A stretch of DNA of 64,000 bases from Aristaeella lactis (GTDB lineage: Bacteria > Bacillota > Clostridia > Christensenellales > Aristaeellaceae), in the NCBI RefSeq assembly GCF_018118585.1, contig NZ_CP069421.1, positions 1,984,001 through 2,048,000 of the forward strand. The letters run 5' to 3'. Under the pieces are notes generated by a model, which saw nothing but the letters and a program-made list of their open reading frames with translations, ran no database searches and was not told where the DNA came from. Position numbers and translations under genes: made by a program. Numbering within the stretch: the first letter of the stretch is position 1; each line of letters opens with the position of its first letter. Shown here in pieces: positions 5,219-36,976 of the stretch.

Positions 5219-5230
5219 TCCAAACCGTAT

Positions 5231-5267
5231 AACAAGGCCCGGATCCGTCATGGATCCGGGCCTTGTT
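5231..5267. terminator. Bidirectional terminator between convergent genes
   Basis: A perfect 16-bp stem (AACAAGGCCCGGATCC and its complement) encloses a 5-base loop between the secreted protein (+) and the ABC permease (-). The T-rich tail is clearer on the plus strand. Confidence 0.8.
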
Positions 5268-5276
5268 CTGTCCTCT

Positions 5277-7574
5277 TTATTCTTCCGTTTTCAGCGCGGC
5301 CACCATATCAATCGACCGGTTCTTCCGGGCGACCATCAGTCCGACGATCAGGGAAACCCCGAAGGTCAGCAGGATGGAGAGCAGGTAGGTTGCCGGACCC
5401 AGCGTCAGCTTCATCTCATATTCCGAAGCCAGGGCGGTCAGCAGGTACTGCAGCACGCCGACGCCGGCAGGCAGGCCGATTAGGATTCCGATCACGGTCA
5501 GCCACAGGTTCTGGCTGATCAGGAGCCGGCCGATCTTGCTGTTTTTGAACCCGACCACCTTCAGCGTCGCCATCTCCCGGTACCGCTCCGTATAGCTCAT
5601 GACGCCCAGGTTGTACAGGACCACAATTCCCAGCGCCACCGCCGCGATCACCAGCAGCCAGATCATCTTGTCCATCAGGTCAATGAAGGTCCCGAAGGAA
5701 TCCATAATGGACTGCTTGCTCTGGGTGTTCAGGATATGCTTGTCCGTCTCCACTTCCGTTTCGTCCGTGAAGACCGCGTTGACCGTGTAGGAGATCCCCG
5801 CCGATTCCGCGCAGGCCCGGGTCATCATCACGCTCTCGCTCAGGCACTTGCAGATTCCGGCCACCCGGACCGTATAGCTTTCATCCGTCCCGTAGGGGGA
5901 AAAGGTCAGGCTGTCCCCCGCTGCCAGGCCGTGCGTCTGCGCCACCCGCTCGCCGATGTACGCCCCGTCGTCCGTCAGGGCAATCACGTTCATATCCTGG
6001 TCCGCGAACCGGATCCGGTCATGGGTAATCTCATAGACTTCCAGGGTGTATCCTTTGTCTCCGATCTGCACGCTCCGCTGCGCTACCCAGTCTCCGTTAT
6101 ATTTCTCTGCCAGGGCCAGGGCTTCCTCATTGGTAATGTTTTCCGCGTCCAGGTTGATTTTGGTCGTATAATTGTTTGCCTGGTCAAAGAACACGTCCAT
6201 AAAGGAATTCAATGTGTCCTTCATGCCCATGCCGCCTACCAGCAGCACCATGCATCCTACCACGCCGAACAGTGTCATCCAGGACCGGGATTTATGCCGC
6301 AGCAGATCCCGCAGGTTCCATTTGATCCCGAAGCCCAGGGCTTTGAAGCGTTTTGTCTCCTCCACAGCCAGGTGCTTCATCCGTTTGGGTGTATAAGGCC
6401 GAAGCGCGTCCGCCGCCGTACCCTGCAGCATCTTCCGCACGGAAAGAAAACCGATCAGGGTCAGGAATACGTTGATCAGTATGATTACCAGCCAGCTGAA
6501 GGGCGGCGCGTACAGCGTCCAGTGGAGCATATCCAGGTAGGTGGCCATGGCGCTGTCCGGATTCAGGATGAACAGGCCCAGCCCATAACCGATCGCCATA
6601 CCCAGTAGCGATCCGATCAGTCCGATGATCAGCGCGTATGAAGTATAGTGAATCAGGATCCGTCTGTTCCTGAATCCCAGTGCCTTCATGGTGCCGATCT
6701 GTCGTTTCTCGCTGGCCGTGATCCGGTGCATGGTAGTCACCATGGTCAGGATGGCAATAGCCAGGAACAGCACCGGCAGGATAGATCCCATGGTTTTGCC
6801 TTCATCCACCTCGCCCTGGGCTTCCGACCAGGTAAAGCTTTCATCCCTGGACAGCACCAGCAGTGTCCGTCCCAGCGCCTTGTCCAGCTTTTCCACAAAA
6901 TCCGCCTTCTCCAGGCTGCTCTTCACGTTCAGCTGCATATACAGCGATCCGCCCGTAAACATCCGGGCCATGGCAGGGATCGCGTTATCCATCATCTTCG
7001 GAGAGATAAATCCGAAGCCGTGGGAGTTATAGTCCGGCATCATCTGGGTCTCATCCGGCAGGCAGATCAGGTATTCGCTGGATTTGACGAGGCCCTTTAC
7101 GGTACCAGTCACCTCGATCATCTTGTAGGTCAGGCTCATGCTGTCACCCAGCTGAATCCCGTTTGCCGCGGCATACCGGTCTGAAAGCCAGATCCCGTCC
7201 TCGCTTTCCGGGTCATAGGCTTCCCCGGAGGTTACCAGCAGGCCGGAAACTTTCGGATTCTCCACCACGGTCATGGCCAGGGTGTCTTCGGTTCCTTTTA
7301 CCGCCGTCACCACGGACAGGTACCGTGTGGCATCCTCCACGCCGTCTATTTCCAGTACTTTCTGCAGGTCCTCCTCGCTGAAGGCCTTTTCGGCATAAAC
7401 CCGGTAATCCGAATAACCGGTCGCTTCATAAATCTCTGTCAGGTTCTTTTCCAGGCTGTACCATTCAATGTTGAATCCCAGGAACACCCCGACACCCAGG
7501 GCGATCATCAGCACCATGGAAATAAACTGTGCCTTGTAATGCCACAGCGTCCTGAATAACTTCTTTATCAGCAT
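5277..7574 (-). CDS. Large FtsX/MacB-type ABC transporter permease
   Basis: The protein has 765 aa. It has an N-terminal membrane anchor, a large extracellular domain, a block of three membrane helices around residues 255-370, a second anchor near 435 and extracellular domain, and a final block of three helices. This is the duplicated two-FtsX-domain layout of long Firmicute permeases. Such proteins act with a MacB/LolD-type ATPase in export, lipoprotein handling or peptide sensing rather than import. The partner ATPase is immediately upstream at 7712-8413. The 137-bp gap between them holds AT-rich repeats and a hairpin. The substrate is unknown. The operon lies behind a metal box, which suggests but does not prove iron control. 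Confidence 0.85.
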   Translation of the reverse strand: MLIKKLFRTLWHYKAQFISMVLMIALGVGVFLGFNIEWYSLEKNLTEIYEATGYSDYRVYAEKAFSEEDLQKVLEIDGVEDATRYLSVVTAVKGTEDTLAMTVVENPKVSGLLVTSGEAYDPESEDGIWLSDRYAAANGIQLGDSMSLTYKMIEVTGTVKGLVKSSEYLICLPDETQMMPDYNSHGFGFISPKMMDNAIPAMARMFTGGSLYMQLNVKSSLEKADFVEKLDKALGRTLLVLSRDESFTWSEAQGEVDEGKTMGSILPVLFLAIAILTMVTTMHRITASEKRQIGTMKALGFRNRRILIHYTSYALIIGLIGSLLGMAIGYGLGLFILNPDSAMATYLDMLHWTLYAPPFSWLVIILINVFLTLIGFLSVRKMLQGTAADALRPYTPKRMKHLAVEETKRFKALGFGIKWNLRDLLRHKSRSWMTLFGVVGCMVLLVGGMGMKDTLNSFMDVFFDQANNYTTKINLDAENITNEEALALAEKYNGDWVAQRSVQIGDKGYTLEVYEITHDRIRFADQDMNVIALTDDGAYIGERVAQTHGLAAGDSLTFSPYGTDESYTVRVAGICKCLSESVMMTRACAESAGISYTVNAVFTDETEVETDKHILNTQSKQSIMDSFGTFIDLMDKMIWLLVIAAVALGIVVLYNLGVMSYTERYREMATLKVVGFKNSKIGRLLISQNLWLTVIGILIGLPAGVGVLQYLLTALASEYEMKLTLGPATYLLSILLTFGVSLIVGLMVARKNRSIDMVAALKTEE

Positions 7575-7616
7575 AAAAACTCAATCCTTTTCATTCTGAC
7601 CTTATAAACGAATCCT

Positions 7617-7711
7617 CAGAATTCAATATTTCATTCTGAATCAGTAAAACATTTTCATTCTGCATCCTGCATTCTGCATTGCAGAAGATGAATGTCACAT
7701 TCATCTTCTGC
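7617..7711. repeat. AT-rich intergenic repeat element with perfect hairpin
   Basis: Degenerate units of CATTCTGCATT/AATTCTGAAT type (7617-7680) are followed by a perfect 14-bp inverted repeat (GCAGAAGATGAATG, 3-base loop, 7681-7711) that abuts the stop codon of the ABC ATPase. It lies inside an operon, between ATPase and permease. Confidence 0.7.
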
Positions 7712-8413
7712 TCACCAGTCCACTTCTTCGACTGTCATCGGCTTCTCCTGCTCTTCGCAGGACTTAATTTTCCCGTTCTTCACCCGTATCACCACGTCCG
7801 CCATCTTCGCGATGTTCTGGTTATGCGTCACAATGATGATCGTCTTGTTCATATCCCTGGCCATGGAAAGCAGCAGCTTCAGCACCATCACGCCGGTTTC
7901 GGAGTCCAGCGCGCCGGTAGGCTCGTCGCACAGCAGGATCCGGGGGTTTTTCGCCAGCGCCCGGGCAATGGAAACCCGCTGCTGTTCACCGCCGGACAGT
8001 TCGGAAGGAAACTGATGGATGTGATCCGCCAGGCCGACTTCCCGTAGCATGTCATGACTGCTCAGGGGATTTTTTGCGATTTCCTTGACCAGCGCGACAT
8101 TTTCAATCACGGTCAGGGTGGGAATCAGGTTGTAGCTCTGAAACACAAAACCCACGGTTTCCGCCCGGTAATCCGCCAGCTCGTTTTCCGTCAGGGTGGA
8201 AATATCCCTTCCGTCCACGGTGATGGTTCCCTCTGTCGGGCTGTCCAGTCCGCCCAGCAGGTTCAGCAGCGTGCTTTTGCCTGCGCCGCTGGGACCGAGC
8301 ACTACGATAAACTTTCCTTCTTCAAGGGAAAGATCCACGTGGTCCAGCGCCCGCTGCTCGTGATCGCCGTTGCGGTAAACCCTCGATACATCCTTCAGTT
8401 CCACAATACCCAT
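7712..8413 (-). CDS. ABC transporter ATP-binding protein (MacB/LolD type)
   Basis: The protein has 233 aa. Walker A is GPSGAGKST, the signature is LSGGEQQRV and Walker B is ILLCDEPTGALD. The VFQSYNLIP Q-loop segment and EPTG-LD are typical of the MacB/LolD/FtsE class. It would energise the 765-aa permease encoded downstream. The promoter at 8574-8602, hairpins in the leader and a metal box at 8489-8504 precede it. It is divergent from the TetR gene. Confidence 0.93.
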   Translation of the reverse strand: MGIVELKDVSRVYRNGDHEQRALDHVDLSLEEGKFIVVLGPSGAGKSTLLNLLGGLDSPTEGTITVDGRDISTLTENELADYRAETVGFVFQSYNLIPTLTVIENVALVKEIAKNPLSSHDMLREVGLADHIHQFPSELSGGEQQRVSIARALAKNPRILLCDEPTGALDSETGVMVLKLLLSMARDMNKTIIIVTHNQNIAKMADVVIRVKNGKIKSCEEQEKPMTVEEVDW

Positions 8414-8488
8414 CTTTGTTTTTCTCCTCCTGTTTGCTCTCTTTCCTCCGGGCCGACGTCAGTTGTTTGTCTGATTTTGTCTTCTTTT

Positions 8489-8504
8489 ATTAGTTGCATC
8501 TAAC
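8489..8504. promoter_or_regulatory. Metal-repressor box 3
   Basis: ATTAG-TTGCAT-CTAAC lies 70 bp downstream of the -10 of the ABC ATPase promoter, in the leader. It would act as a roadblock, or on a closer promoter that I could not identify. Confidence 0.7.
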
Positions 8505-8573
8505 TTTGAACCCCAAAGGAAGCTGCTCCCGTCTCAGAAGCAGCCGATGCATGACTTTTCACATGCCTGATAT

Positions 8574-8602
8574 TGTATACCATGAAAGACTATGATTGTC
8601 AA
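8574..8602 (-). promoter_or_regulatory. Promoter of the ABC ATPase-permease operon
   Basis: On the minus strand TTGACA (8597-8602) and TATACA (8574-8579) are 17 bp apart, a near-consensus sigma-A promoter. The 160-bp leader downstream contains two short hairpins (GCATG/CATGC and GCTGCTTC/GGGAGCAGC) and box 3. Confidence 0.75.
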
Positions 8603-8638
8603 GTGCAAACGTTTGTTTTAGATGGATCTAATTTGTTC

Positions 8639-8667
8639 TTGACAAGCTTCTTCAATCCGGTTATTCT
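8639..8667 (+). promoter_or_regulatory. Promoter of the tetR-type gene
   Basis: TTGACA (8639-8644) and TATTCT (8662-8667) are separated by 17 bp. The palindrome at 8677-8695 begins nine bases downstream of the -10. Confidence 0.75.
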
Positions 8668-8676
8668 ATCCGTCGG

Positions 8677-8695
8677 AAGCGAACAGTGTTCACTT
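8677..8695. promoter_or_regulatory. Probable TetR operator
   Basis: AAG-C-GAACA-G-TGTTC-A-CTT is a 19-bp near-perfect palindrome covering the expected transcription start of the TetR gene, consistent with autorepression. This is inferred from position and symmetry only. Confidence 0.65.
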
Positions 8696-8718
8696 AAATG
8701 GATGGAAGGAGGCGCCTT

Positions 8719-9333
8719 ATGGCACGCGACAAATCCGCTCATCATGAAAAGATCATCGCAGCAGCCCGGGAGGAGTTCATGACTTACGGTTTTACGGACG
8801 CCTCCATGCGGCGGATTGCCGCCGCCGCGGGTATGAGCGTTGCCGGCCTGTACAAGCATTTTACCTCCAAGGAGGAAATGTTCGCCGCCCTTGTGGAACC
8901 TGCCTGCCAGGGGCTGATCAGCCTCTACCGGCTGGAGGAAGCTGAAGAACAGGCAGCCCTGCAGACCGAATCCCTGGGGGATAAGTGGAGCCAGGGCGGG
9001 GACGCGAAAATGGCCATGATCTTTATCTATGAACATCTGGACGCCTTTCGCCTGCTGATCTGCAAATCCCGGGGCACCCGGTATGAATCCTTCCTGCATG
9101 ATCTGTCGGAGGCAGAGGAAAAAATCACCCTGGATATGATGTCTCTCCTGCGGGAACAGGGGATGCCGATCAGGGAAGTGGATCCGGAGGAATTTCACCT
9201 GCTCGTCACCGCCAATATCGATGCTGTCTTCCAGGCGGTCATCCATGATTTCTCCCGGGAACAGGCCATGCATTACGCCGATACCCTGGATGCGTTCTTT
9301 GCCCGGGGCTGGCAGGCGCTTTTCGGTTACTGA
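8719..9333 (+). CDS. TetR/AcrR-family transcriptional regulator
   Basis: The protein has 204 aa. The ATG at 8719 is preferred to an in-frame ATG at 8698 because it follows GGAAGGAGG. The N-terminal helix-turn-helix is clear: IIAAAREEFMTYGFTDASMRRIAAAAGMS, then VAGLYKHFTSKEEMF. The C-terminal ligand domain is unspecific. It lies between two divergent ABC operons, separated from the rightward ABC pair by a terminator-like structure. It probably represses its own promoter through the 8677-8695 palindrome and may control the downstream ABC pair by read-through. The ligand is unknown. Confidence 0.9.
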   Translation: MARDKSAHHEKIIAAAREEFMTYGFTDASMRRIAAAAGMSVAGLYKHFTSKEEMFAALVEPACQGLISLYRLEEAEEQAALQTESLGDKWSQGGDAKMAMIFIYEHLDAFRLLICKSRGTRYESFLHDLSEAEEKITLDMMSLLREQGMPIREVDPEEFHLLVTANIDAVFQAVIHDFSREQAMHYADTLDAFFARGWQALFGY

Positions 9334-9371
9334 GCCCCTTTATTTTTCGTAACATCGGGGCGCTTTTTTTT
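9334..9371 (+). terminator. Terminator or attenuator between tetR-type gene and ABC operon
   Basis: GCCCC (9334-9338) pairs with GGGGC (9357-9361) and is followed by eight T residues (9364-9371). A third segment, GCCCC (9372-9376), could pair with the same GGGGC and disrupt the terminator. The stem is short, so strength is uncertain. Confidence 0.55.
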
Positions 9372-9380
9372 GCCCCTGTT

Positions 9381-9396
9381 GTTAGCCAATTCTAAC
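9381..9396. promoter_or_regulatory. Metal-repressor box 4
   Basis: GTTAG-CCAATT-CTAAC ends 20 bp before the ATG of the first ABC half-transporter, just upstream of its AGGAGG ribosome-binding site. No -35/-10 pair was found between the terminator and the box. Confidence 0.75.
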
Positions 9397-9415
9397 TTAG
9401 GAGGTCGATCTTCCC

Positions 9416-11179
9416 ATGTCAAAACAGGCAAAAGCCCGTAAACGCAGCACCTTCAGCTGGGTGATGGAGTTTGCGGGCGCCCGCAGGAGCAGCTACGTTA
9501 TCAGCGTGCTGCTGGCAGTCGCCAACGTAGTCTGCGGTTTTATTCCCTTCCTTTACCTTGCGAACATTGTCCGGAGGCTGCTTGAAGGCACAGCGGATTT
9601 TTCCTACTGCCTGAACCAGATCCTGTATATGGGGTTGTTCTGGGTGCTGAGCCGGCTGTTCCACACTTTCTCCACCACCATGTCCCATAAGGCCACCTTT
9701 GAAGTGCTGGCCGGGATCCGCCGGCAGTTAACCCGAAAGCTGGCCCGGATGCCCCTGGGCGACGTGCTGGACGAATCCTCCGGTTCCTATAAAAACATCA
9801 TCGTCGAGCGCGTGGATTCCATGGAAACCACCCTGGCCCACATGATCCCCGAAGTGACGTCCAACCTCCTGATCCCCTTTGTCATCTTCGGTTATATGGT
9901 CAGCATCGACTGGCGCCTGGCGCTGCTGTCCCTCCTGACGGTGCCGGTCGGCTTTACCTGCTTCGGCCTGATGATGCGCGGCATGAAAGCTGACTTCACC
10001 AACACCATCGTCAAGACCAAGGCGCTGAATGACACCGCCGTGGAATACATCAACGGCATCGAGGTGATCAAGGCCTTCGGCAAGGCAAAAACCAGCTACG
10101 ACAAGTTCGTAAACGCCGCGAAGGAGGGCGCTGACTGCTTCATTGAATGGATGCGCCGCTGCAATGTGTACCAGAATACCGCCATGGCAGTCCTGCCGGC
10201 TACGCTGCTGCCCCTGCTGCCCTTTGGCGTCAGCTACTTCATGAACGGAGCCGTTACCGCGCCGGACCTGGTGATGCTGATCATCCTTGCCATGGGCCTG
10301 ATCACGCCCTTCATCATGGCCTCCAACTACATGGATGACCTGAGCAAGTGCGGCACCATCATCGGGGAAGTCACAAACATCCTGACCAAGCCGGAGCTGG
10401 AACGTCCGGAACGGCTGGCCCAGGCCCCCGTCGGCACCACCATCTGCCTGAAGGATGTGCATTTTGCCTATAAAAAAGAAGAAGTCCTCCACGGTGTAAA
10501 CCTGACCATTGAGGAAGGTACTGTGAATGCCCTGGTCGGTCCATCCGGTTCAGGCAAAAGCACTATCGCCAAGCTGATTGCCTCCTTCTGGGATGTGGAC
10601 AGCGGTGAGATCACTTTCGGCGGCACTGACATCCGGAAGATCCCGCTGGATGACTATCAGAAAGAGATTGCCTTTGTTTCCCAGGATAATTACCTGTTTG
10701 ATATGAGCGTCATGGAAAACATCCGTCTGGGCAATCCCAGGGCGACGGATGAACAGGTGATTGAAGCGGCCAAAGCCTGCGGCTGCCATGATTTCATCAT
10801 GAATCTTGAAAACGGATATCAGACGGTCTGCGGCGGCGCAGGCGGACATCTGTCCGGCGGTGAACGCCAGCGGATTTCCATTGCCCGCGCCATGCTGAAA
10901 AACGCGCCTGTCATCATCCTGGACGAAGCCACCGCTTATACCGATCCGGAGAACGAAGCGCTGGTCCAGCACAGCGTCGCAAAACTGGTCAAAGGCCGCA
11001 CGCTGCTGGTTATCGCCCACCGTCTGTCCACCATTGCCTCCGCCGATCAGATCATCCTGATCAACAAGGGACAGGTCGAAGCCGCCGGAACCCAGCAGGA
11101 GCTGCTGGACAGCAGTGACCTGTACCGGAGCATGTGGCAGGCGCATATTGCCGCGAAGGAGGCTGAAGACGTTGCTTAA
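9416..11179 (+). CDS. ABC half-transporter, YbtPQ/IrtAB-like, subunit A
   Basis: The protein has 587 aa: about six membrane helices (residues 25-320) fused to a nucleotide-binding domain. Walker A is GPSGSGKST near residue 381, the signature is LSGGERQRI, and Walker B is VIILDEATAYTDPENE. The DPENE ending of the D-loop is characteristic of the siderophore-importing, exporter-fold YbtPQ/IrtAB group. It overlaps the next gene by 8 bp, implying a heterodimer. A metal box lies just upstream, so uptake of a metallophore under iron limitation is the favoured role. Export of a small molecule cannot be excluded. Confidence 0.85.
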   Translation: MSKQAKARKRSTFSWVMEFAGARRSSYVISVLLAVANVVCGFIPFLYLANIVRRLLEGTADFSYCLNQILYMGLFWVLSRLFHTFSTTMSHKATFEVLAGIRRQLTRKLARMPLGDVLDESSGSYKNIIVERVDSMETTLAHMIPEVTSNLLIPFVIFGYMVSIDWRLALLSLLTVPVGFTCFGLMMRGMKADFTNTIVKTKALNDTAVEYINGIEVIKAFGKAKTSYDKFVNAAKEGADCFIEWMRRCNVYQNTAMAVLPATLLPLLPFGVSYFMNGAVTAPDLVMLIILAMGLITPFIMASNYMDDLSKCGTIIGEVTNILTKPELERPERLAQAPVGTTICLKDVHFAYKKEEVLHGVNLTIEEGTVNALVGPSGSGKSTIAKLIASFWDVDSGEITFGGTDIRKIPLDDYQKEIAFVSQDNYLFDMSVMENIRLGNPRATDEQVIEAAKACGCHDFIMNLENGYQTVCGGAGGHLSGGERQRISIARAMLKNAPVIILDEATAYTDPENEALVQHSVAKLVKGRTLLVIAHRLSTIASADQIILINKGQVEAAGTQQELLDSSDLYRSMWQAHIAAKEAEDVA

Positions 11180-27041: not shown

Positions 27042-27749
27042 TCACTCGTCCGCTCCCGCTGTCTGCTGCATTTTGGAGTCGTCCCCGATGAAGCAGCCCG
27101 CGTCCATGCGGATCACATGATCCGCATAGTCCTCCACGTCATCTTCATGGCTGACGACCAGCACCGCTTTCCCTGCTTTTGCCGCCTGTTTCAGCGCGTT
27201 CAGCACAATCTCCGTATTCTCGTTGTCCAGGTCCCCGGTAGGTTCGTCCGCCAGGATCACGTCAGGATCAGTGGTCAGTGTCCGCGCGATGGCCATCCGG
27301 CGCAGTTCGCCCCCGGAAAGCTCTGCCGGCATCGCATCCCGCAGTTCGGCAATTCCCAGCGCTTCCATCCAGCACTCCGCCGTTTTCGTCCGGGGTGTAC
27401 CGGTATACAGCATACCCGGCAGCAGGATATTTTCATAAACCGTCAGCGTATCCACAGCGCTGCGTCCCTGGGGTATCACGCCGATTTTTTTATTGCGCAG
27501 CCGGGACAGTTCTTTGTCCTCCAGTGCGTACAGGTCCGTTTCCCCCAGGTACACCTTTCCCTCTGAGGGATTCAGCAGGCCCGCCAGCATGTGCAGCAGC
27601 GTGGTTTTACCCGATCCGCTCCTGCCCTTCAGCACGGTCATTTCTCCTCCCCGGAGAATCAGGGACACCGGGCGTACCGCCTCAAAAAAGTTTGCTTCTC
27701 CCCGTTTCCGGAAATACCGGCGGGAGATGTTTTCCGCTCTCAGTTCCAT
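27042..27749 (-). CDS. ABC transporter ATP-binding protein, last gene of the FTR1-P19 operon
   Basis: The protein has 235 aa: GRSGSGKTT Walker A, LSGGELRRM signature, VILADEPTGDLD Walker B, MacB/LolD class. The signature ELRRM departs slightly from the common EQQRV. It would drive the permease encoded 1 bp upstream. FTR1-P19 clusters of other bacteria, such as the Campylobacter jejuni cj1658-cj1663 group, also include MacB-type ABC components. This operon has two ATPases and three permeases. Confidence 0.9.
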   Translation of the reverse strand: MELRAENISRRYFRKRGEANFFEAVRPVSLILRGGEMTVLKGRSGSGKTTLLHMLAGLLNPSEGKVYLGETDLYALEDKELSRLRNKKIGVIPQGRSAVDTLTVYENILLPGMLYTGTPRTKTAECWMEALGIAELRDAMPAELSGGELRRMAIARTLTTDPDVILADEPTGDLDNENTEIVLNALKQAAKAGKAVLVVSHEDDVEDYADHVIRMDAGCFIGDDSKMQQTAGADE

Positions 27750-27750: not shown

Positions 27751-28956
27751 TCAGGCGCCCTCCCTCAGCGTGCTGCCCGGATCCACCCGGCTCAGCTTTG
27801 AAGCTGTATGCAGGCTTGCCGCGCATCCGGCAGCCACCGTTACCGCGATCGCGAGCGCCGCACAGGCCGCCACCGTTCCCGCGCCCGGTGCCAGGTAGGG
27901 CAGCTTCAGGCTTGTTTCAATCAGGGTTGTGAAAGGGAAAACCGCCAGCGCCCCCAGCAGCACGCCGCAGACTGCCCCTGCCAGGCTGCACAGGGCTGTT
28001 TCTTTCAGAATCATGCCGGACAGCATGTTCCGGCTCATGCCCACCAGGCGGTATACCGCCAGCTCCCGTCGCCGCTCGTTCACCATCATGGCAAAAGCGA
28101 TAAACAGGATCACCAGCGCCAGGATCCATACCGCCGCGATCAGCACAGCCACTGTCCTGGACACGCCGCCCAGGCTGTCCGATACTTCCGTGAGCATGCC
28201 GGTGGTCCTGACGGCGGTCGCCTTCCGGATCTTTCCGTTCAGCCGGTTGTTGACCAGGCCGACATCCGCTCCGGGCAGGGTGCGGACATAAATAGCGGAA
28301 ACCACTTCCGCGTCGTTTCCGGTGTCAATTTTGTGGCTGATGCCTTTTTCCTCCGCCGCCCGCAGCAGCGCGTGCATGGTGTTCATGTTGCAGTACACCG
28401 CAGTATCCAGGCCCGTGCCCGTCGCCGCCAGCCGTGCGGCCACCAGGCACCGCTGGTCATAGATGCGGAAGATTTCCCCCACGTCCGTTGCCACCCGGCA
28501 GCCGACCACGATCTCCATGTCGCCCAGAGGCCTATTCAGGCTTTCGGCGATCCAGGGCTGCACCACAAAGTCGTTTTCCGGATCAAAGCCGATAATCTGC
28601 ACCTTCACGGAGCAGCAGTCCGCCTTCATCGAGGAAAGGAAAACCTGGGCGGACGCCTTCTGGACGCCCTCCGTTTCCCGTACCTTCTCCACCGCCGAAG
28701 CGTCCATGTAGAAGGTGCCGATGGTTCCCTGAAGCAGCATGTTCTTAAGGCTTGATTTGGATTCCGCTTCCGCGGGAACCACGATAATATCCGCGCCCAG
28801 GCGGTTCTCCATGCTGCTGAGTCCCCTGCGCAGGGAGGAAACTACCATCGTGCCGGCAAACAGCGACAGTGACAGGAAGGCCGTCAGCAGGATCAGGGCC
28901 GTTGTCCGTCCGGGCTTCCTGGTCAGGTTCCGGAACACCGGTGAAAAACGTTTCAT
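27751..28956 (-). CDS. FtsX/MacB-type permease of the FTR1-P19 operon (third permease)
   Basis: The protein has 401 aa. The ATG at 28956 overlaps the preceding stop (ATGA) and begins MKRFSPVFRNLTRKPGRT; longer upstream frames are ignored. One N-terminal helix (about 20-42) is followed by a 200-residue extracellular domain and three C-terminal helices, the standard MacB layout. It contains no FMN-binding motif, unlike the neighbour at 30227. It is paired with the ATPase at 27042-27749. Its role in iron uptake is inferred from the operon. Confidence 0.87.
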   Translation of the reverse strand: MKRFSPVFRNLTRKPGRTTALILLTAFLSLSLFAGTMVVSSLRRGLSSMENRLGADIIVVPAEAESKSSLKNMLLQGTIGTFYMDASAVEKVRETEGVQKASAQVFLSSMKADCCSVKVQIIGFDPENDFVVQPWIAESLNRPLGDMEIVVGCRVATDVGEIFRIYDQRCLVAARLAATGTGLDTAVYCNMNTMHALLRAAEEKGISHKIDTGNDAEVVSAIYVRTLPGADVGLVNNRLNGKIRKATAVRTTGMLTEVSDSLGGVSRTVAVLIAAVWILALVILFIAFAMMVNERRRELAVYRLVGMSRNMLSGMILKETALCSLAGAVCGVLLGALAVFPFTTLIETSLKLPYLAPGAGTVAACAALAIAVTVAAGCAASLHTASKLSRVDPGSTLREGA

Positions 28957-29348
28957 GCTTTCCTGCTCCGTTCTGTAATGATCCCGATCAGTGCCGATAC
29001 TGCCGCCGCTCCGGAAAGAATAATCATGGAGGGCTGCATTACCGCGCGGCAGTGCATTGTGTCCATTTTGCACAGGGGCATCAGCACGCCCGGCAGCAGG
29101 ATACCGATGACCGCGGCGCACAGGGCTGCCGCGAACAGCACCAGCCGGACGCCGCGTCTTTTCAGCAGCATAATCAGGATTGCGAGAACAGCTGTCACGC
29201 ATCCGTCGATCAGCAGGGCTCTTCCCGCGTCTGCGCAGGGGCCTTTGCTCCCGTCCTCATGGACGCAGGGGCCGAGCACTGTCACGGATCCCGTGGCTAT
29301 GATTGCGGCAAGCACCAGGAGCAGGATCGCAAAAAGATTCTTTTTCAT
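28953..29348 (-). CDS. DUF4418-like small membrane protein
   Basis: The protein has 131 aa with four membrane helices. Cysteines sit near the outer face: GPCVHEDGS, GPCADAG and CKMDTMHCRAVMQP. The GPC and MHC pattern fits the DUF4418 family. The function is unknown. Met/Cys/His-rich loops suggest metal or redox handling, but this is inference. It lies between ATPase 1 and permease 3 of the FTR1-P19 operon. Confidence 0.72.
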   Translation of the reverse strand: MKKNLFAILLLVLAAIIATGSVTVLGPCVHEDGSKGPCADAGRALLIDGCVTAVLAILIMLLKRRGVRLVLFAAALCAAVIGILLPGVLMPLCKMDTMHCRAVMQPSMIILSGAAAVSALIGIITERSRKA

Positions 29349-29391: not shown

Positions 29392-30099
29392 TCAGCTCCG
29401 GTGTTTTTGCGCCCATTCCTTCTGCTGCGCTTCAAAGTTTTCGTTGATGACCTCCCGCGCCACCTTGCCGTGCTCCAGCACAATGGTCCGCTGGGCTGCT
29501 TCCGCAACCTCCGGGTCATGTGTAACCACAATCAGGGTCGTTCCCTCCGCGTGCAGGCGGGCAAACAGGTCCAGCACGATGTTCTCATTGGCTTCATCCA
29601 GGTTTCCGGTAGGTTCGTCCGCCAGGATCAGCTCCGGATGGTTGATCAGCGCCCGTGCCACACACACGCGCTGCTGTTCGCCGCCGGACAGCTGGCTGGG
29701 CAGGTGGTGGGCCCGTTCCCGCAGGCCGACCCGGCCCAGGGCTTCCAGGGCTTCCTGTTCATCCGGCATGGAGTGGTAATACTGGCTGACCATCACGTTC
29801 TCCACGGCGGTCAGGTAGTTCACCATATGGAACTGCTGGAAGATCAGTCCGATTTTATCCCGCCGGATATCTGTCAGCTTCTTGCTGCTTTCCCGGGCAA
29901 TGTCCACCCCGTCCAGCAGCACCTCGCCCAGCGTCGGCTTATCCATACAGCCGATGATGTTCATCATCGTGCTCTTTCCGGAACCGGAAGGCCCCATGAT
30001 CGCAACCCATTCTCCCTTATCCACATGAATGCTTACATTATCCAGGGCCTTCAGGTCCCCGTAAATCTTGGAAATGTTTTTTAATTCCAGAAGACTCAT
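29392..30099 (-). CDS. ABC transporter ATP-binding protein of the FTR1-P19 operon (first ATPase)
   Basis: The protein has 235 aa. The start at 30099 is preferred to an ATG six bases upstream because of spacing from AAAGGAGA. Walker A is GPSGSGKST, the signature is LSGGEQQRV and Walker B is LILADEPTGNLD, MacB class. It follows two permease genes and an AT-rich repeat element, and corresponds in order to the ATPase of P19-FTR1 clusters elsewhere. Confidence 0.92.
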   Translation of the reverse strand: MSLLELKNISKIYGDLKALDNVSIHVDKGEWVAIMGPSGSGKSTMMNIIGCMDKPTLGEVLLDGVDIARESSKKLTDIRRDKIGLIFQQFHMVNYLTAVENVMVSQYYHSMPDEQEALEALGRVGLRERAHHLPSQLSGGEQQRVCVARALINHPELILADEPTGNLDEANENIVLDLFARLHAEGTTLIVVTHDPEVAEAAQRTIVLEHGKVAREVINENFEAQQKEWAQKHRS

Positions 30100-30114
30100 A
30101 ACCATTCTCCTTTG

Positions 30115-30241
30115 GTTAATTCAGAATGAAGAATTCAGAATTCAGAATTATTATTTTAACCGCCTGCTGATAAACAGGTCTGACCATTCATCATTGTGCA
30201 TTATGCATTGTACTGAAAGATGAATCTTATTCATCTTTCAG
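30115..30241. repeat. AT-rich intergenic repeat element with perfect hairpin
   Basis: AATTCAGAATTCAGAATT-type units (30121-30150) and GTGCATTATGCATT units (30195-30211) are followed by the perfect inverted repeat CTGAAAGATGAAT with a 3-base loop (30213-30241). The right arm contains the last four codons and part of the stop codon of the permease at 30227, so the left arm is a reversed copy of the gene end. Confidence 0.7.
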
Positions 30242-31687
30242 CACAATCGCCGGGTCAATGGCCACCGCGCGCTTGATCGGCTGCAGGCAGCTGAGGGCCG
30301 CCACCGCGATGGACACGATCACCGCCGCAGGCAGCAGCAGCGGCTGGAAGGTGATGGAGGAGCCGAACACGTTCACGCTCACCACCTGGGCAAACACGAA
30401 GCCCAGCAGGCCGCCCAGCAACCCGCCCAGCAGGCCCAGGAACACACCCTCACCCAGGAACTCTGCCCGGATGCTGCCATCGGAGGCGCCCAGCGCCTTC
30501 CGCAGGCCGATCTCACGACGCCTTTCGGACACAACCGCCATCATCGTGGTGGATACGCAGATCATGGTCAGCACCAATACCACTGCGGTCACCAGGAACA
30601 CCAGGCTCTGCAGCTTACCGAGCACCGCCGTTTCGGACCGCGTCACCCGCTTGACCAGCCGGGCTTTGACGCCCTCCGTCTCCGCGGAAATCTTTTCTGT
30701 ATAGGCTTCCAGCTCCTCCGCCGAAGCGCTCACGCTCAGTTCCGCCACGTCCACCTTGTCTTCGCCTGTCAGGTTTGCCATATCCTCCAGGCTCATAAAC
30801 ACGTAAGCTTCTTCTTCACCGCCCGTGGTCAGGATGCCGGACACCGTGCATTTCACCGTCCGTGCCGTTACACTGCTTTCCGCATTCCGGGCTGTGTTCA
30901 GGGCGTCCACCACCGCCGTGGAGGTCACCGTGGCACCGCTGAGCGCATCCACGTCCCCGCCCAGGTTCAGCGGCAGTGCCTTCCCGATAAACTGGGCATT
31001 GAAGGCTTCGTCCGTCTGTGCCAGCCCGCCGATCTCCGGCGTCTGGGTTCCCGCGTCAATGGTCAGGGAGGCAATCCGGGACTCATTGTCCAGCCGGGCG
31101 GTCACGTAGACCTTGCCGCCGCTCCAGCCCTCCGCACTTCCGGTCAGCACCGCGCCGGGTTTCCGGTCTTCGGCCGGATCGCCGGTCATTTCGCCGGCAG
31201 ACGGCTGCCAGGTCAGTTCCATGTCCGATCCGATCCGCGCGCCGATGGTTTCCGCAATCTCCTTGCCTACCAGCACCTCCCGGGTCTTTTCCGGATACCG
31301 GCCGTCCACGCTGAAGTAGGGGCTCGTTTTCGTAATCTGGCTGAAATCCGTACCTGCCGCTGTAAAGGACTGCTGGCGCGTGGTCATGTCCACCCGCACG
31401 TAGCGGTAAGGAGCCGCGCCAACCAGCTGTTCCGCGTCAATCTTTTCCAGGGCTCCGTCCAGCTGATCCTTCGTCATGCTCTTTCCCTCATCGGAAAGCA
31501 GCAGCATATTCGCGCCGAAGGAACGGAACTGGGCTCCCATCTGCCGGGGTACGTCCACATATATTGTCACCAGGCCTGCCAGGATTGTCGCGCCGATGCC
31601 GATGGACAGCAGCGCGATCAGCATCCGGCTGCGCCGCCGGAGCAGCGAGGCAGTGATCATTCTCAGGAACATTCTGCGTCTTGTCAT
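30227..31687 (-). CDS. MacB-type ABC permease with embedded FMN-binding domain
   Basis: About 486 aa from the ATG at 31687. A GTG at 31762 would add a basic 25-residue extension across a large inverted repeat, and the start is uncertain. One N-terminal helix, a long extracellular region and three C-terminal helices give the MacB layout. Within the extracellular part, about 180-270 residues in, lies an FMN-bind-like segment: GGKVYVTARLDNESRIASL, then FNAQFIGK and DALSGATVTSTAVVDAL. The DALSGAT motif matches covalent flavinylation sites, and a second such motif is in 2511-3620. It is the second permease of the FTR1-P19 operon. A flavin-linked ferric reduction role is inference. Confidence 0.85.
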   Translation of the reverse strand: MTRRRMFLRMITASLLRRRSRMLIALLSIGIGATILAGLVTIYVDVPRQMGAQFRSFGANMLLLSDEGKSMTKDQLDGALEKIDAEQLVGAAPYRYVRVDMTTRQQSFTAAGTDFSQITKTSPYFSVDGRYPEKTREVLVGKEIAETIGARIGSDMELTWQPSAGEMTGDPAEDRKPGAVLTGSAEGWSGGKVYVTARLDNESRIASLTIDAGTQTPEIGGLAQTDEAFNAQFIGKALPLNLGGDVDALSGATVTSTAVVDALNTARNAESSVTARTVKCTVSGILTTGGEEEAYVFMSLEDMANLTGEDKVDVAELSVSASAEELEAYTEKISAETEGVKARLVKRVTRSETAVLGKLQSLVFLVTAVVLVLTMICVSTTMMAVVSERRREIGLRKALGASDGSIRAEFLGEGVFLGLLGGLLGGLLGFVFAQVVSVNVFGSSITFQPLLLPAAVIVSIAVAALSCLQPIKRAVAIDPAIVLKDE

Positions 31688-31807: not shown

Positions 31808-33106
31808 TCATTTCCCTCCATGAAGCACTTCGGCCGGTTTCAGCCTGAGCACCGTCCGGATTGCCGGCAGGCTGCCCGCCAGCGTCACCAGGGCAACCAG
31901 GCCCGCCACGATCGGAACCACCGCCGGTTTCATTTCCACCGCCGCGCCGAACACACTCCGGCCGATCAGCTGGGCAAATCCGAAGCCCATAAAGTATCCT
32001 GCCGCGCCGCCGATCAGCGCCGTGACCAGGATTTCCGTCATGATAACGCCCGTGATGGAATGATCCCGTGCGCCGATGGCCTTCAGCAGGCCGATTTCCT
32101 TCGCCCGTTCCATCACGCTGGCTGTCACCAGGTTGCTGATGCCCAGGGCGGAGCCGATCAGGCTCAGCGCTGTAATCAGGATCATCAGGAGCTGGGTTTT
32201 CTCCAGGATCGCGCCTTCGCCTTCCGCCACCTTGCGGACCGCGGCGGCCACGGATCCCGGAATAGCTTCCTGGATCTGGTAGCAGATCGCGCTCACATAG
32301 GCCGTGCAGTACCAGGTTTCATAATCCCGGCCGGAAAGTGCCGCCGGGTTCCGTGCCGCCCGGCGTGCCAGCTCGTTGTCCGGCGTGGTAATGGCGGAAA
32401 CCTCCACCGAGGCCACCTTGCCTGCCCGGTCAGTCAGTTCCTGCACCAGGGCCAGCGTGCCGAAAATCTGCTCGTCCTCGTCTCCGCCTGCGTCATAGAT
32501 GCCGGCAACGGTCACGGTCTTTTCACCCTTGCTGCCCCGCAGCGTTACAGTGTCTCCCGCTTTCCATCCCTGGGCCTGTGCCACTGTCATACCGGCCATG
32601 ATCTCCGCGTTGGCGTTTTCGTCCTTTTCATCCAGCCAGCGTCCGTCCGTCACGTCCCACCAGGAGCGCATGCCGACCACGCCGGCGTCCAGTTCCTCGC
32701 CTGTCGGGAGGGACAGATGGTGGTTGAACCAGCTTCCGTTCAGCTTCACCGCGCTGCCGTCCGGCAGTACGGCCTGGGTGTCCAGGAAGGGGGCGAAGTC
32801 CACAATGTTGAACGCCCAGAAGATCGTCTTGATCTTGCCCAGGTCCCCTTCGTTCAGCCAGGCTGTATTCAGCTCCTCGCCGCCTTCTCCCACGTCATAG
32901 ATGTCAGACAGCAGGGAGGAATCCTTCGGTTTCACCACGATATTGGCGCCGTAATTCTTCAGTTCCTGGTTAACCTTGTCTCCGACGTCCATCATCACGT
33001 TCAGCATGCCCGTGGCCAAGCTGGCCCCCAGCGCGATCGTGAACGCGATCAGCAGCATTTTCCCCTTCTGATGGAACAGGACGCCGCGAATCATCCGCAA
33101 CAGCAT
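31808..33106 (-). CDS. FtsX/MacB-type permease of the FTR1-P19 operon (first permease)
   Basis: The protein has 432 aa. The ATG at 33106 follows GGGAGG; an ATG 15 bases upstream lies inside that site. N-terminal helix, about 230-residue extracellular domain, three C-terminal helices near 290-420. It has no FMN-binding motif. It corresponds in position to Cj1661-type permeases of P19-FTR1 loci. Together with the next permease and the ATPase at 29392 it should form one ABC complex. Confidence 0.88.
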   Translation of the reverse strand: MLLRMIRGVLFHQKGKMLLIAFTIALGASLATGMLNVMMDVGDKVNQELKNYGANIVVKPKDSSLLSDIYDVGEGGEELNTAWLNEGDLGKIKTIFWAFNIVDFAPFLDTQAVLPDGSAVKLNGSWFNHHLSLPTGEELDAGVVGMRSWWDVTDGRWLDEKDENANAEIMAGMTVAQAQGWKAGDTVTLRGSKGEKTVTVAGIYDAGGDEDEQIFGTLALVQELTDRAGKVASVEVSAITTPDNELARRAARNPAALSGRDYETWYCTAYVSAICYQIQEAIPGSVAAAVRKVAEGEGAILEKTQLLMILITALSLIGSALGISNLVTASVMERAKEIGLLKAIGARDHSITGVIMTEILVTALIGGAAGYFMGFGFAQLIGRSVFGAAVEMKPAVVPIVAGLVALVTLAGSLPAIRTVLRLKPAEVLHGGK

Positions 33107-33119
33107 TTCTTTTCCTCCC

Positions 33120-33208
33120 ATTCCGGATTCACCCCAATGAATCCGGAATCAACCATTAATTGTGCATTGTGCATTGTTCAGATAATTCCGGTTCCGGAAT
33201 TATCTGAA
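33120..33208. repeat. Operon-internal repeat element with two inverted repeats
   Basis: ATTCCGGATTC/GAATCCGGAAT (33120-33130 and 33139-33149), GTGCATTGTGCATT units, and a perfect 15-bp hairpin TTCAGATAATTCCGG (33177-33208). The right arm covers the last codons and stop of the DUF2318 gene. Confidence 0.68.
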
Positions 33209-34489
33209 CTCCTTCTCCCCTGCAAGCAGATCCTCAAGTTTGAACACCAGGTTCCCGTCTCCCACCTCATAAGCCAGCGGAATCGGGTTGCAGCCGCCCT
33301 TGAAGCCGATGGTGTTGATGTTCATAACCACGTCGCAGCGCTTGCAGACCACCTGGCTGCCCCGCTCGTAATAGCCTGCGTTTCCGCATACCTCGCAGGC
33401 GTCAAAGCCGACGCCGTAGGTCGCGGCATTGGGCTTCTTCACCACAATCCAGCGGATGGTCACGTTCTTCTCGGTCGTGTATTCAAACCGGTGCAGGTGA
33501 CCATCGTTCACAGCCTCCGTGGGAATCAGGATACGGTCCCCGTCCACCGTGTAGCTTTCCGGCGCGGACAGTACCACTTCCTTGGTGTCATAGGCCTTCA
33601 CCGCGGTCAGGGTCAGCACGAACAGCAGGATCATCACCAGCGTGGCGATCGCCAGACGGCGGCGTCTCCGGTTGCCCGCCCGGAGCTTGCGCAGCTGTGC
33701 CGCGTGCTCATAGGGTTCCGTCACCCTGGTGTTCTCCAGCAGGAACAGCAGCGCCAGCAACGCGGCCAGGAACGCAGCTGCCCAGATGAAGATCATGGCG
33801 TTTGTGGCCGTCCACATAGTAAAGGAGCCGATCCAGCCGTACTCAGCCTCCGTGTACTTCACAGACCAGCCCAGCCACCTGGCCCGGCTGATCCAGGGCA
33901 CAAAGAACCGCCCCAGGCAGTAGACCGCGTAGAGAAGCACTCCCGTGCGGAGAATCTGCCGCGGTACAGCGGACTTCCGGATATGTACAGCGCATCCGTA
34001 CAGGAAACGCGAATAGACGAACAGCAGCAGAAGCGCCAGGGCCCAGCCGCCCAGCCGCTCCATGTAGTAGGCCGAGAAGAAGCCGTTTCCCATCGTGTTG
34101 AAGCTGAAGGGATACAGTGCCACCGTCGGCAGCCGGAAAAAGATCATTCCCGCGGAAACCGCCGCTCCGCAAACAGTCAGGCAGATTCCGCCAGCGCCCG
34201 GTTTCTTTCCTTCCTTCCGGCCATGGAAAAGGGATAACATGAAAAATGCCACTATGAAAACCATCAGATAAGCATAGGTCCAATGGTTCCAGTGACTGGA
34301 GATAATTTTATTGGTGGTCTGTTTGACCACAGCCAAAGCAATGCCGGCAATGATACCTGCCCACAGGCCGATTGCGTGTCCCCGGCGTCCGGTCCGGCCG
34401 TACAGCCGTCCCAGGAAGGCGTGCATCAGCGTCACGGTTGTGACGGTATAGAACAGGTCCTGTATAACACTCCAGAGATAATACAGCAA
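33200..34489 (-). CDS. DUF2318 (Fe-S-containing) membrane protein of the FTR1-P19 operon
   Basis: The protein has 429 aa. The start is a TTG at 34489, seven bases after GGAGGG. Seven or eight membrane helices (residues about 1-300) precede a C-terminal extracytosolic domain with FDACEVCGNAGYY, VVCKRCDVVMNI and GFKGGCNPIP. This gives five cysteines (365, 368, 382, 385, 400), the DUF2318 cluster-binding pattern. The homologue in Campylobacter (Cj1660) sits directly after P19. A redox role in handing iron to FTR1 is likely, by family context. Confidence 0.88.
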   Translation of the reverse strand: MLYYLWSVIQDLFYTVTTVTLMHAFLGRLYGRTGRRGHAIGLWAGIIAGIALAVVKQTTNKIISSHWNHWTYAYLMVFIVAFFMLSLFHGRKEGKKPGAGGICLTVCGAAVSAGMIFFRLPTVALYPFSFNTMGNGFFSAYYMERLGGWALALLLLFVYSRFLYGCAVHIRKSAVPRQILRTGVLLYAVYCLGRFFVPWISRARWLGWSVKYTEAEYGWIGSFTMWTATNAMIFIWAAAFLAALLALLFLLENTRVTEPYEHAAQLRKLRAGNRRRRRLAIATLVMILLFVLTLTAVKAYDTKEVVLSAPESYTVDGDRILIPTEAVNDGHLHRFEYTTEKNVTIRWIVVKKPNAATYGVGFDACEVCGNAGYYERGSQVVCKRCDVVMNINTIGFKGGCNPIPLAYEVGDGNLVFKLEDLLAGEKEFR

Positions 34490-34577: not shown

Positions 34578-35132
34578 TTACCACTGCTTGACGAACTTCC
34601 AGCCGGTCCAGGTCGCTTCCAGGGGCTCGGTCCAGAAACCGTCCTTGGCATCGACGCCGGTCTCGGAGTCAACATGCAGCAGATAGCCGTTTTCAGCCGG
34701 GCTCTTAATGTACAGGGTGATGCTGTACTCGCCGTCGGCCAGCTTGATGTTGTTGCCGTAGTGGGGGCCGTCGGAAGCCGCCATGGGCATCATGGAACCG
34801 GAGGTTACTTCCTTGCCTTCGGTGTCGCGGATCACGAAGTCAATGGTCAGGTAGGGCACCCACTGGTCCACCGGGAAGGCATAGCCGTTCTCGTTGGCGG
34901 TCAGGTCCACTTCGATGTGCAGGTCCGTGTTTTCCTTGGCGGTCGCCTGATCAACGGGAGCCATATCAACGGGCTGGAAGTAAACCATAGCCATGGTCAT
35001 GAAGCCAACTTCCTGTTCACCTTCAACGCCCAGTTCGAATTCATCGAAACCGGCTTCTTCTTCCGCCATCGCGACGGCAGACAGGGAGAACAGCATCATA
35101 ACAGCCAGAACCAGAGAAAGCAGTTTTTTCAT
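34578..35132 (-). CDS. P19-type periplasmic/extracellular iron-binding protein
   Basis: The protein has 184 aa with a Sec signal (MKKLLSLVLAVMMLFSLSAVAMA). It has the P19/Tp34 iron-transport fold signatures: DLHIEVDL (His72, Glu74), WVPYLTIDFVI, MMPMAASDGPHYG (Met117, His124) and GYLLHVD (His153). The His, Met, His, His set matches the Cu/Fe ligands known for Campylobacter P19. It delivers iron to the FTR1 permease encoded immediately upstream. An 18-base-loop-free, GC-rich hairpin lies on each side of its gene, suggesting separate transcript stability. Confidence 0.93.
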   Translation of the reverse strand: MKKLLSLVLAVMMLFSLSAVAMAEEEAGFDEFELGVEGEQEVGFMTMAMVYFQPVDMAPVDQATAKENTDLHIEVDLTANENGYAFPVDQWVPYLTIDFVIRDTEGKEVTSGSMMPMAASDGPHYGNNIKLADGEYSITLYIKSPAENGYLLHVDSETGVDAKDGFWTEPLEATWTGWKFVKQW

Positions 35133-35227: not shown

Positions 35228-36976
35228 TTATTGCTGGGCAGCTGTCAGTTCCTTGCGCTGGGCTGCCAGTCTGCCCCGGTAATGGGCGATCATGAAGGTT
35301 ACCAGCAGGATGATGGCCAGGATCAGCTGCGGCACCAGTGTTTCCAGATACGGATAGATGCCGAAGATCTGGATTACATCGTTTTCAGGAATGCCGGGCA
35401 CCCGGAGCGTCAGGTCAAACAGGTTGCCTTCCGCCAGTTCCTTGATGCCGCTTCCCAGGAAGCTGACGCACATCACAGCCATGAGAATGCTGGTGGCGGT
35501 GAAAAACACTTTGATCGGCAGCTTGATGGACAGCTTGGTAATGGCCAGGTAGACAAACACCAGGATTACCACGCCCGCGCCGAAGCCGGCCCAAACCATA
35601 CCCGCGTTGCCCTCCTGCAGCATCGGCTGGTAGAACAGCACCACTTCCGCGCCTTCCCGGAATACGGACAGGAACGCGGTAAAGGCCAGGGTGAAGGCGG
35701 AGCGTTTCTCTACGCCGGAGCGCACCTTGCTGTCGATATAGCCAGTCCAGGCTGCTGCTTCCGCCTTGGAGATCATCCAGTTGGAAACATAGAACAGGAC
35801 GCACACAGCGATCAGGGCGGTGACGCCTTCAATCAGCTCCTGTGCCATACCGGCGCCCGCAACCGCCTGCTTTACAAAGTAAAGCACGGCCGCTGCAGCG
35901 AAGCTTGCCAGGATACCGGCCAGGGCGCCGATGTACACGTTCTTCAGGCTCTTTCCGTTACCGCTCTTGACAAGGTAGGCAATGATTGCCGCGATAACCA
36001 GGATCGCCTCCAGGCCTTCCCGGACGATGATGCCGAAGGCACCCAGGAAGGTCAGCCACTGCGGACTGCTTTGCGCCTCTTCCGCTGTTTCTGTCGCAGC
36101 TTCTTCTGCCGCCGCTTCCGTTGTTCCTTTTTCCGCGGCCGCCTTTTCGTCCAGCGTCTTTGCTTTCTTCAGCAGCACCTGCTTGGTCTTGTCGCTGGTC
36201 GTGCGGTATTTGTTCTTCTGATACTTTTCGTTTCCGGCGCTGACCAGGGTCCGCAGTTCCGCGAACTGCTTTTCCGTCTCCCGGCGGTCTTTGACACCCA
36301 GCTCCGTGTAGATTTTGTGGGACAGTCCGGATTCTTCGTATACGCTGTAGTAGGCGGTGTTCAGGTTGTCATCCGCCGCTTCAAAGTCCTTGTCCAGGTA
36401 AGCCAGGTAGGCCGTATCCAGCAGTTCCTTGGTCAGGCTCGCCGCTTCGTACCAGCTGGCGTATTTTGCCGCGGCGTTCGGGTCGGGGGAATACTCGGGA
36501 TAGGGATCCGCGGAAACCGGTTCTCCGTTCTTATAGAACTTGTTTTCGCTCTGCACGCCGCCCTGCTGCGCAGCCAGCTTGTTGCCGTCCTCGCGGATCA
36601 TGGCTTTCAGCTTGAGCAGGGCGCCGCGGACGGAAACGATCGTTTCCTGATCCGTGTTTTCCTTTTTCACCGCCGCCTTGCAGGCGGAGAACTGCATTTC
36701 CACCGCGTTCTTGCGCACGCCGGAGATGTAGCTCATGGTCTGGCGTTCAAAACCGGTGGTTTCGTATACCCGGAAGTAGGCGTCGTTCACGTTGTTGTAC
36801 GCCGTTCCCGCGTCGCCTGCCAGATAGTCTTCAAAAGCAGTATCCAGGTATTTGTCAATTTCGTCTGACGCGTCAGCCCAGCGGGTGCTGCCTCCCTCGC
36901 CCAGGGCGGGAAGAACCTGCGCCATCAGGGACAATATCAGCAGCAGCCACAACACGGGCCGAAGGGCTTTCCTCAT
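35228..36976 (-). CDS. FTR1-family high-affinity iron permease with N-terminal extracellular domain
   Basis: The protein has 582 aa: signal/anchor (1-25), two related helical repeats of about 95 residues (YLDTAFEDYLAGD near 43 and LLDTAYLAYLDKD near 185), an Ala/Glu-rich linker, then a seven-helix FTR1 domain from about 308. The iron-site motifs REGLE (319-323) and REGAE (440-444) are intact. Bacterial FTR1 proteins with such N-terminal domains work with P19. It is the first gene of a nine-gene operon, behind two metal boxes. It moves Fe across the membrane. Confidence 0.95.
   Translation of the reverse strand: MRKALRPVLWLLLILSLMAQVLPALGEGGSTRWADASDEIDKYLDTAFEDYLAGDAGTAYNNVNDAYFRVYETTGFERQTMSYISGVRKNAVEMQFSACKAAVKKENTDQETIVSVRGALLKLKAMIREDGNKLAAQQGGVQSENKFYKNGEPVSADPYPEYSPDPNAAAKYASWYEAASLTKELLDTAYLAYLDKDFEAADDNLNTAYYSVYEESGLSHKIYTELGVKDRRETEKQFAELRTLVSAGNEKYQKNKYRTTSDKTKQVLLKKAKTLDEKAAAEKGTTEAAAEEAATETAEEAQSSPQWLTFLGAFGIIVREGLEAILVIAAIIAYLVKSGNGKSLKNVYIGALAGILASFAAAAVLYFVKQAVAGAGMAQELIEGVTALIAVCVLFYVSNWMISKAEAAAWTGYIDSKVRSGVEKRSAFTLAFTAFLSVFREGAEVVLFYQPMLQEGNAGMVWAGFGAGVVILVFVYLAITKLSIKLPIKVFFTATSILMAVMCVSFLGSGIKELAEGNLFDLTLRVPGIPENDVIQIFGIYPYLETLVPQLILAIILLVTFMIAHYRGRLAAQRKELTAAQQ

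Follow-up and report, generated by a model that had tools for sequence, protein, structure and literature searches.

An FTR1-P19 iron operon of Aristaeella lactis encodes, as its second ABC permease, a FetC/SifC-type protein into which an FMN_bind domain is inserted. We consider it probable that this domain, placed in an extracytoplasmic hairpin of the permease, is a tethered electron relay that replaces the separate FMN-binding lipoprotein of related operons. The operon was found in a window (the whole stretch of DNA analysed) of 64,000 nt from NZ_CP069421.1 (1,984,001 to 2,048,000, forward strand), and coordinates are positions in this window unless stated otherwise. The genes, with the parts of permease 2, are as follows.

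35228..36976 (-), FTR1 iron permease, N-terminally extended by 300 residues (PF03239, E 2.2e-35, starting at aa 311)
34578..35132 (-), P19 iron-binding protein (PF10634, E 1.2e-45)
33200..34489 (-), FtrD-like/DUF2318 membrane protein, FetA/SifA type (PF10080, E 9e-30)
31808..33121 (-), permease 1, FetB/SifB type, no FMN_bind (MacB_PCD and FtsX)
30227..31687 (-), permease 2, FetC/SifC-type ABC permease with inserted FMN_bind, second permease of the FTR1-P19 operon (486 aa; Pfam FtsX and FMN_bind)
31130..31207 (-), variable N-side linker of permease 2, aa 161-186 (42% mean pairwise identity)
30890..31129 (-), inserted FMN_bind domain, aa 187-266 (Pfam PF04205, structural model, NqrC/RnfG fold, dN/dS)
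30929..30931 (-), Thr253 codon; within DALSGATVTS, this Thr is the predicted acceptor of FMN (the same in all 28 aligned rows)
30860..30889 (-), variable C-side linker, aa 267-276 (25% mean pairwise identity)
29392..30105 (-), ABC ATPase, FetD/SifD type (ABC_tran, E 2.1e-34)
28953..29348 (-), DUF4418 membrane protein, directly after the ATPase (PF14387, E 1.4e-16)
27751..28956 (-), permease 3, FtsX-type (FtsX, E 1.7e-16; start at 28956 judged from sequence; scanned to 29055)
27042..27749 (-), second ABC ATPase (ABC_tran, E 8.6e-31)

A preliminary description of this DNA had placed an FMN-binding domain within a MacB-type permease whose sister permeases lack one, and both points were borne out. 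Permease 2 is an FtsX/MacB-type protein (FtsX domain, E 7.2e-21), and the Pfam scan assigned FMN_bind (PF04205) to aa 190-266 with an E value of 1.2e-9 and 39.2 bits, compared to a curated cut-off of 22. In the same scan (E up to 0.1), no FMN_bind was listed for the permeases at 31808-33121 and 27751-29055. The motif DALSGATVTS spans aa 247-256, and its SGAT fits the [S/T]GA[S/T]-like ApbE acceptor motif as defined in PMC8238504; the acceptor motif is intact. The gene probably begins with the ATG at 31687, since the consensus of 28 aligned homologues opens MTKRRMFLRM.

Structure prediction also returned the FMN-binding fold. The inserted domain, modelled alone, had a mean pLDDT of 88.2 and matched NqrC (4xhf_A; Z 10.6, 95 aligned residues, 3.6 A), RnfG (7zc6_G; Z 9.9), and a single domain of SaFMN3 (8p2a; Z 8.8). 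The top 16 rows of the structural comparison were all NqrC, RnfG, or single FMN domains, with the best unrelated row being IscU at Z 7.1, and the top Foldseek match was RnfG (9eri_G, E 2.4e-4). An AF2 model of full-length permease 2, which was of moderate quality (pLDDT 79.3, pTM 0.54), aligned to LolE (9xro_E; Z 21.0, 348 aligned residues, 5.5 A) and also to MacB and the HrtB permease of the haem exporter HrtBA.

The genomic context proposed for the permease was likewise confirmed by Pfam, with FTR1, P19, and FtrD/DUF2318 all encoded just upstream on the same strand. The minus-strand order is FTR1, P19, FtrD/DUF2318, permease 1, permease 2, ATPase, DUF4418, permease 3, and ATPase 2, of which the first six genes match the conserved FetMP-FetABCD (FTR1-P19) order. 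The separate seventh gene, which varies among clusters and encodes a thioredoxin or an FMN-binding protein, was not found in the window's operon, where DUF4418 follows the ATPase, and no further FMN_bind match lies close to the operon. Elsewhere in the window, a 369-aa secreted-looking protein (2511-3620, minus strand) gave a weak FMN_bind match (24.5 bits) with a DAVSGAT motif. In FtrD, His333 and Cys365, 368, 382, 385, and 400 were invariant in 32 of 32 aligned relatives. FtrD was also considered as an obvious haem conduit; this was rejected, as only the C-terminal His/Cys set is invariant and there is no invariant membrane histidine.

Conservation of the insert was assessed in homologues of permease 2 obtained by searching genome contigs with the protein sequence. 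Of 174 relatives, the best 80 were used (62-99% identity in the best segment), and these are therefore close relatives by construction. All 80 contain the inserted domain, shortened in one (L071), and 79 of these best 80 retain the D-x-x-[STA]-G-A-T motif, which argues that the acceptor motif in permease 2 is not a chance occurrence. The exception, L071 (7069-8532), has an in-frame deletion that takes out the acceptor Thr together with the helix after it; it may be a naturally flavin-less form or the product of a faulty assembly. In 28 aligned rows, mean pairwise identity was 59% for the domain, close to the 62-68% for the rest of the outer region, and the linkers were less conserved (42% on the N side and 25% on the C side). 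The median dN/dS of the insert was 0.19, compared to 0.15 and 0.19 for the flanking outer region and 0.06 for the membrane part of permease 2 (44 close pairs, which are not independent of one another). The inserted domain is under purifying selection.

The insertion point was located by alignment to LolC and LolE of E. coli. Together with its linkers, the insert starts past LolC residue 165 and ends at about residues 175-180, and a separate profile alignment placed the insert between LolE residues 168 and 176; the exact edges fall in the variable linkers and are uncertain by some residues. In LolC, aa 167-179 form the Hook, a beta-hairpin (PMC8333309) that is the main element recruiting LolA (PMC10865981). 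By alignment, the insert therefore occupies the position of the LolC element that holds an outside partner. LolC 175-179, the last part of the Hook, was aligned on the variable C-side linker, so that the match to the Hook applies to the insert together with its linkers.

Homologous FTR1-P19 loci were surveyed for the same insertion and for a separate FMN gene, which was called when a match exceeded 15 bits, was shorter than 330 aa, and lay on the same strand within 7.5 kb. The insert was found in 94 loci, 10 of which were family loci repeating genome-contig loci, leaving 84 distinct loci. Among the best 80 of 174 relatives, the insert loci belong to Clostridia of several families, and the insert is present in all 14 P19 loci that were retrieved from relatives within the window's own family. 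A separate FMN gene was recognised in none of the 84 distinct insert loci, 67 of which had at least 2.2 kb read beyond permease 2, with the proviso that a very divergent separate gene could be missed because the calling thresholds were fixed. In the window's genome, no full-length orthologue of the separate FMN protein was found elsewhere; the best, a partial match within a 687-aa frame, reached 41% over 59 residues (E 0.008).

The 19 P19-type loci of the first census that lack the insert have a shorter permease 2 (373-403 aa as open frames). Nine of them carry a separate FMN gene after the ATPase, and nine others, which are deeper branching, carry neither an insert nor a separate FMN gene recognised by profiles; because of these nine loci, the flavin partner is not considered universal. 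The remaining locus, L130, lies on an E. coli plasmid and was counted apart, as its seventh gene is TlpA-like and its FMN gene is upstream. This locus (NZ_CP135459.1) contains a complete FTR1-P19 operon, upstream of which are encoded a disulfide oxidoreductase and an NqrC-like FMN_bind protein. Permease 2 matched 799 Escherichia plasmid records by tblastn, one of which was examined.

A further set comprised 40 of the 100 genomes that gave a P19 match, with most genera represented by a single genome; 6 of the 100 were already covered. A separate FMN gene was present in the operon in all 37 loci that could be read past the ATPase, a number that may include near-copies, and the insert was present in none of the 39 further P19 loci that have permease 2. 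Three rows without permease 2 (L109 and L124 in the first census and L161 in the further set) were not counted, and two loci were not counted for the separate gene: L185, in which permease 2 is cut by the end of the stretch, and L175, in which the contig ends soon after the ATPase. In the first census, the 'SA' hit in L122 and one of two in L128 coincided with P19 and were discarded, which leaves L128 with a genuine separate gene. Altogether, none of the 46 loci with a separate FMN gene (9 and 37) has the insert. In the sampled loci, the insert and a recognised separate FMN gene did not occur together.

In many loci the separate FMN_bind protein is mostly about 140-170 aa long, has a lipoprotein-like start, and is encoded after the ATPase; in L160 and L170, another permease and ATPase lie between the ATPase and the separate FMN gene. 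In three loci, L127, L108 (Fusobacterium), and L129, the order is ATPase, FMN protein, and DUF4418, followed by permease 3 and ATPase 2 in either order (the DUF4418-like protein of L129 was recognised by eye only). This order equals that of the window's operon with one gene added where the window has none. Of the 65 insert loci with both genes identified, 59 have DUF4418 within 200 bases after the ATPase. DUF4418, permease 3, and ATPase 2 also accompany FTR1-P19 in L108, L127, L128, L182, L187, L189, and others, in varying order. Two copies of P19 occur in one locus in L197, and likewise in L114.

To place the origin of the insert, trees of permease 1 and of permease 2 (with the insert removed) were built; both hold 24 of the 84 insert loci and were rooted at the midpoint. 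In both trees, the 24 insert rows formed one group (100/100), nested among 32 rows that also group at 100/100; each of the 8 rows without the insert in this larger group has a separate FMN gene. The trees thus indicate a single origin of the insert among the sampled rows. If the root lies outside the group of 32, as the remaining rows suggest, the separate gene would be older, and one lineage, made up of gut Clostridia, would have swapped it for the insert. Such a swap counts as a single event, however many loci share the insert, and this limits the argument for equivalence of the two.

By profile score, the insert is closest to the Rnf-linked FMN domains of its own genome (58 and 55 bits) and scores at most 12.7 bits against the separate lipoproteins. 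In a tree of FMN domains (86 columns), the lipoproteins were set apart from the inserts by starred branches, with weak deeper forks; the inserts did not form one clean group, since L066 fell outside, weakly, and a single group was recovered in 18% of bootstrap trees. Descent of the insert from the separate lipoprotein by fusion was rejected on the profile scores and a starred branch, which put the lipoproteins with other FMN domains, although the 86-column tree is weak in its deeper forks. With the insert near the Rnf-linked domains and far from the lipoproteins in profile score, it seems that a different flavin domain was recruited in the swap and that the neighbouring gene was not fused. The functional equivalence of the insert and the lipoprotein therefore rests on position and mutual exclusion.

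The Rnf-linked domains belong to a protein of 1002 aa that combines several FMN_bind domains with one of the cytochrome c552 type (NrfA-like) and whose gene comes immediately after the Rnf genes. This locus of the same genome (C1:86000-98000, positions 785-11013 therein) comprises an Rnf operon with an RnfD-RnfG fusion of 518 aa (NQR2_RnfD and FMN_bind), next the 1002-aa chain, and then ResB and a protein for cytochrome c assembly. For Christensenellales, Meheust 2021 (PMC8238504) mentions multi-flavinylated RnfGs that include a multi-haem cytochrome domain; in comparison, the multi-FMN/cytochrome chain here is separate from the RnfD-RnfG fusion.

These results suggest how the inserted domain might work. 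The preliminary description had made the presence of a flavin transferase in the genome a point on which its proposal turned, and one apbE was found (C1:541195-542019, E 7.7e-87). An ApbE match was also present in 15 of 15 family genomes with P19, although in one (G711) the gene was split with stops. ApbE would attach FMN to Thr253 of permease 2. In place of the separate FMN lipoprotein, whose gene follows the ATPase in related operons, the flavin domain would relay electrons on the outer face while tethered atop a FetBCD-type complex. Electrons would come from a membrane system encoded elsewhere, for which Rnf, present in the window's genome, is a candidate. The redox partners may be the Cys-rich FetA/FtrD domain or P19-bound iron, with electrons passing to or from them. 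Since the insertion point corresponds to where LolC docks an outside partner, fusion at the Hook position would fix in place a partner that is otherwise transient. We infer, rather than observe, flavinylation, the electron donor and acceptor, the direction of transfer, and coupling to ATP. Genetic data from relatives fit a relay in part. Insertion mutants of sifE (FMN-binding) and apbE in B. breve are sensitive to some iron chelators, and sifABCDE mutants are sensitive to ferrous-iron chelators only (PMC5449479); in C. jejuni, fetA, fetB, fetC, and fetD mutants each grow poorly (PMC10783030).

The direction of electron flow and the identity of the partner give rise to two variants of the relay, whose probabilities overlap with that of the relay itself. 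FTR1 is paired with oxidation elsewhere, its yeast relative working with a ferroxidase, and iron in the anaerobic gut is largely ferrous. Both points favour a flavin that accepts electrons and oxidises P19-delivered Fe(II) for oxygen-free uptake by FTR1, as do the suggestion of the C. jejuni authors that FetE/FetF may act as oxidases in vivo (PMC10783030) and the ferrous-only sensitivity of the B. breve mutants (PMC5449479). On these last two grounds, ferric reduction, the direction envisaged in the preliminary description, was counted against. The oxidase variant is nonetheless on the doubtful side, as the usual description of FMN-binding domains is that they carry electrons to extracytosolic acceptors (PMC8238504) and the same C. 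jejuni paper also invokes a relay of reducing power. To a similarly tentative degree, the flavin might instead serve FetA/FtrD, setting the redox state of the DUF2318 cysteines in place of the thioredoxin-like FetE/FetF and without contact to iron. This variant fits with a seventh gene that encodes a thioredoxin in most of the Proteobacteria of Liu 2018 (PMC6083913) and is TlpA-like on the E. coli plasmid of L130, and with the invariance of the FtrD residues (five Cys, one His); the flavin would, however, be an odd substitute for thiol exchange. The lack of a DsbD match in the window's genome also fits it: a DsbD-type thiol route was rejected there, with no PF02683 match at E up to 0.001.

Apart from these variants, the inserted domain could be structural or a fossil that is not flavinylated and merely lengthens the hairpin. 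The one homologue in 80 that lost the motif by in-frame deletion would agree with this, but the motif in the other 79, the ApbE matches in all 15 P19 family genomes, and the dN/dS of 0.19 make it very improbable. An extension of the tethered relay, which we regard as unlikely, is that ATP hydrolysis swings the outer domains of FetB-FetC and so carries the linker-tethered FMN between a membrane donor and the FetA/P19 iron site; ATP-driven movement of the permease outer domain would here be assumed by analogy with the superfamily. If true, the cargo of the ABC transporter would be an electron carrier and not a solute, and this would answer what FetBCD transports.

A flavin protein in FTR1-P19 operons is itself established. 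The order of the first six genes is conserved in all 33 species of Liu 2018, which also reports a predicted FMN-binding seventh gene in Actinobacteria, Firmicutes, Spirochaetes, and Synergistetes (PMC6083913). Meheust 2021 reports 260 P19 clusters with an FMN-binding gene (PMC8238504), and sifE is the FMN-binding member of the B. breve operon bfeUO-sifABCDE (PMC5449479). The novelty is therefore the relocation into the permease, not the flavin: the separate FMN gene is absent and a flavin domain lies inside the second permease at the Hook position. A search of mostly open-access literature found no description of a flavin domain or covalent redox cofactor within an ABC permease; the supplementary cluster table of Meheust 2021, outside this search, may already hold fused genes. 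According to the C. jejuni authors, it is unclear what the two-permease ABC set of FTR1-P19 operons does and which substrate it has (PMC10783030). Fusion of the flavin partner to one permease suggests that the partner acts at that permease, docking at the Hook. The fused lineage could thus serve as a Rosetta stone, offering testable mutations and complexes also for operons with a separate partner.

Compared to known systems, the operon shares its first six genes (FTR1, P19, DUF2318 protein, two permeases, and ATPase) with C. jejuni FetMP-FetABCDEF, as described in PMC6083913 and PMC10783030, but the latter has two thioredoxin-like genes after its ATPase, whereas none was found here and the flavin domain is in permease 2. 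With the P19 clusters that have a separate FMN gene (Meheust 2021; B. breve), it shares a flavin together with an FTR1-type permease and a two-permease ABC set; in the loci examined, the flavin protein of such clusters is separate and of another FMN_bind subtype, whereas here the domain lies within the permease. The permease fold, and an insertion at the position of the Hook hairpin, are shared with permeases of the LolCDE/MacB/HrtBA type. In LolC, however, a 13-residue Hook binds LolA non-covalently, and here a whole cofactor domain would stand in its place. Finally, the FMN_bind fold and acceptor motif are those of NqrC/RnfG and multi-flavinylated proteins, and the insert is nearest to the Rnf-linked domains of its own genome; unlike NqrC and RnfG, it is embedded in an ABC permease, outside any respiratory complex.
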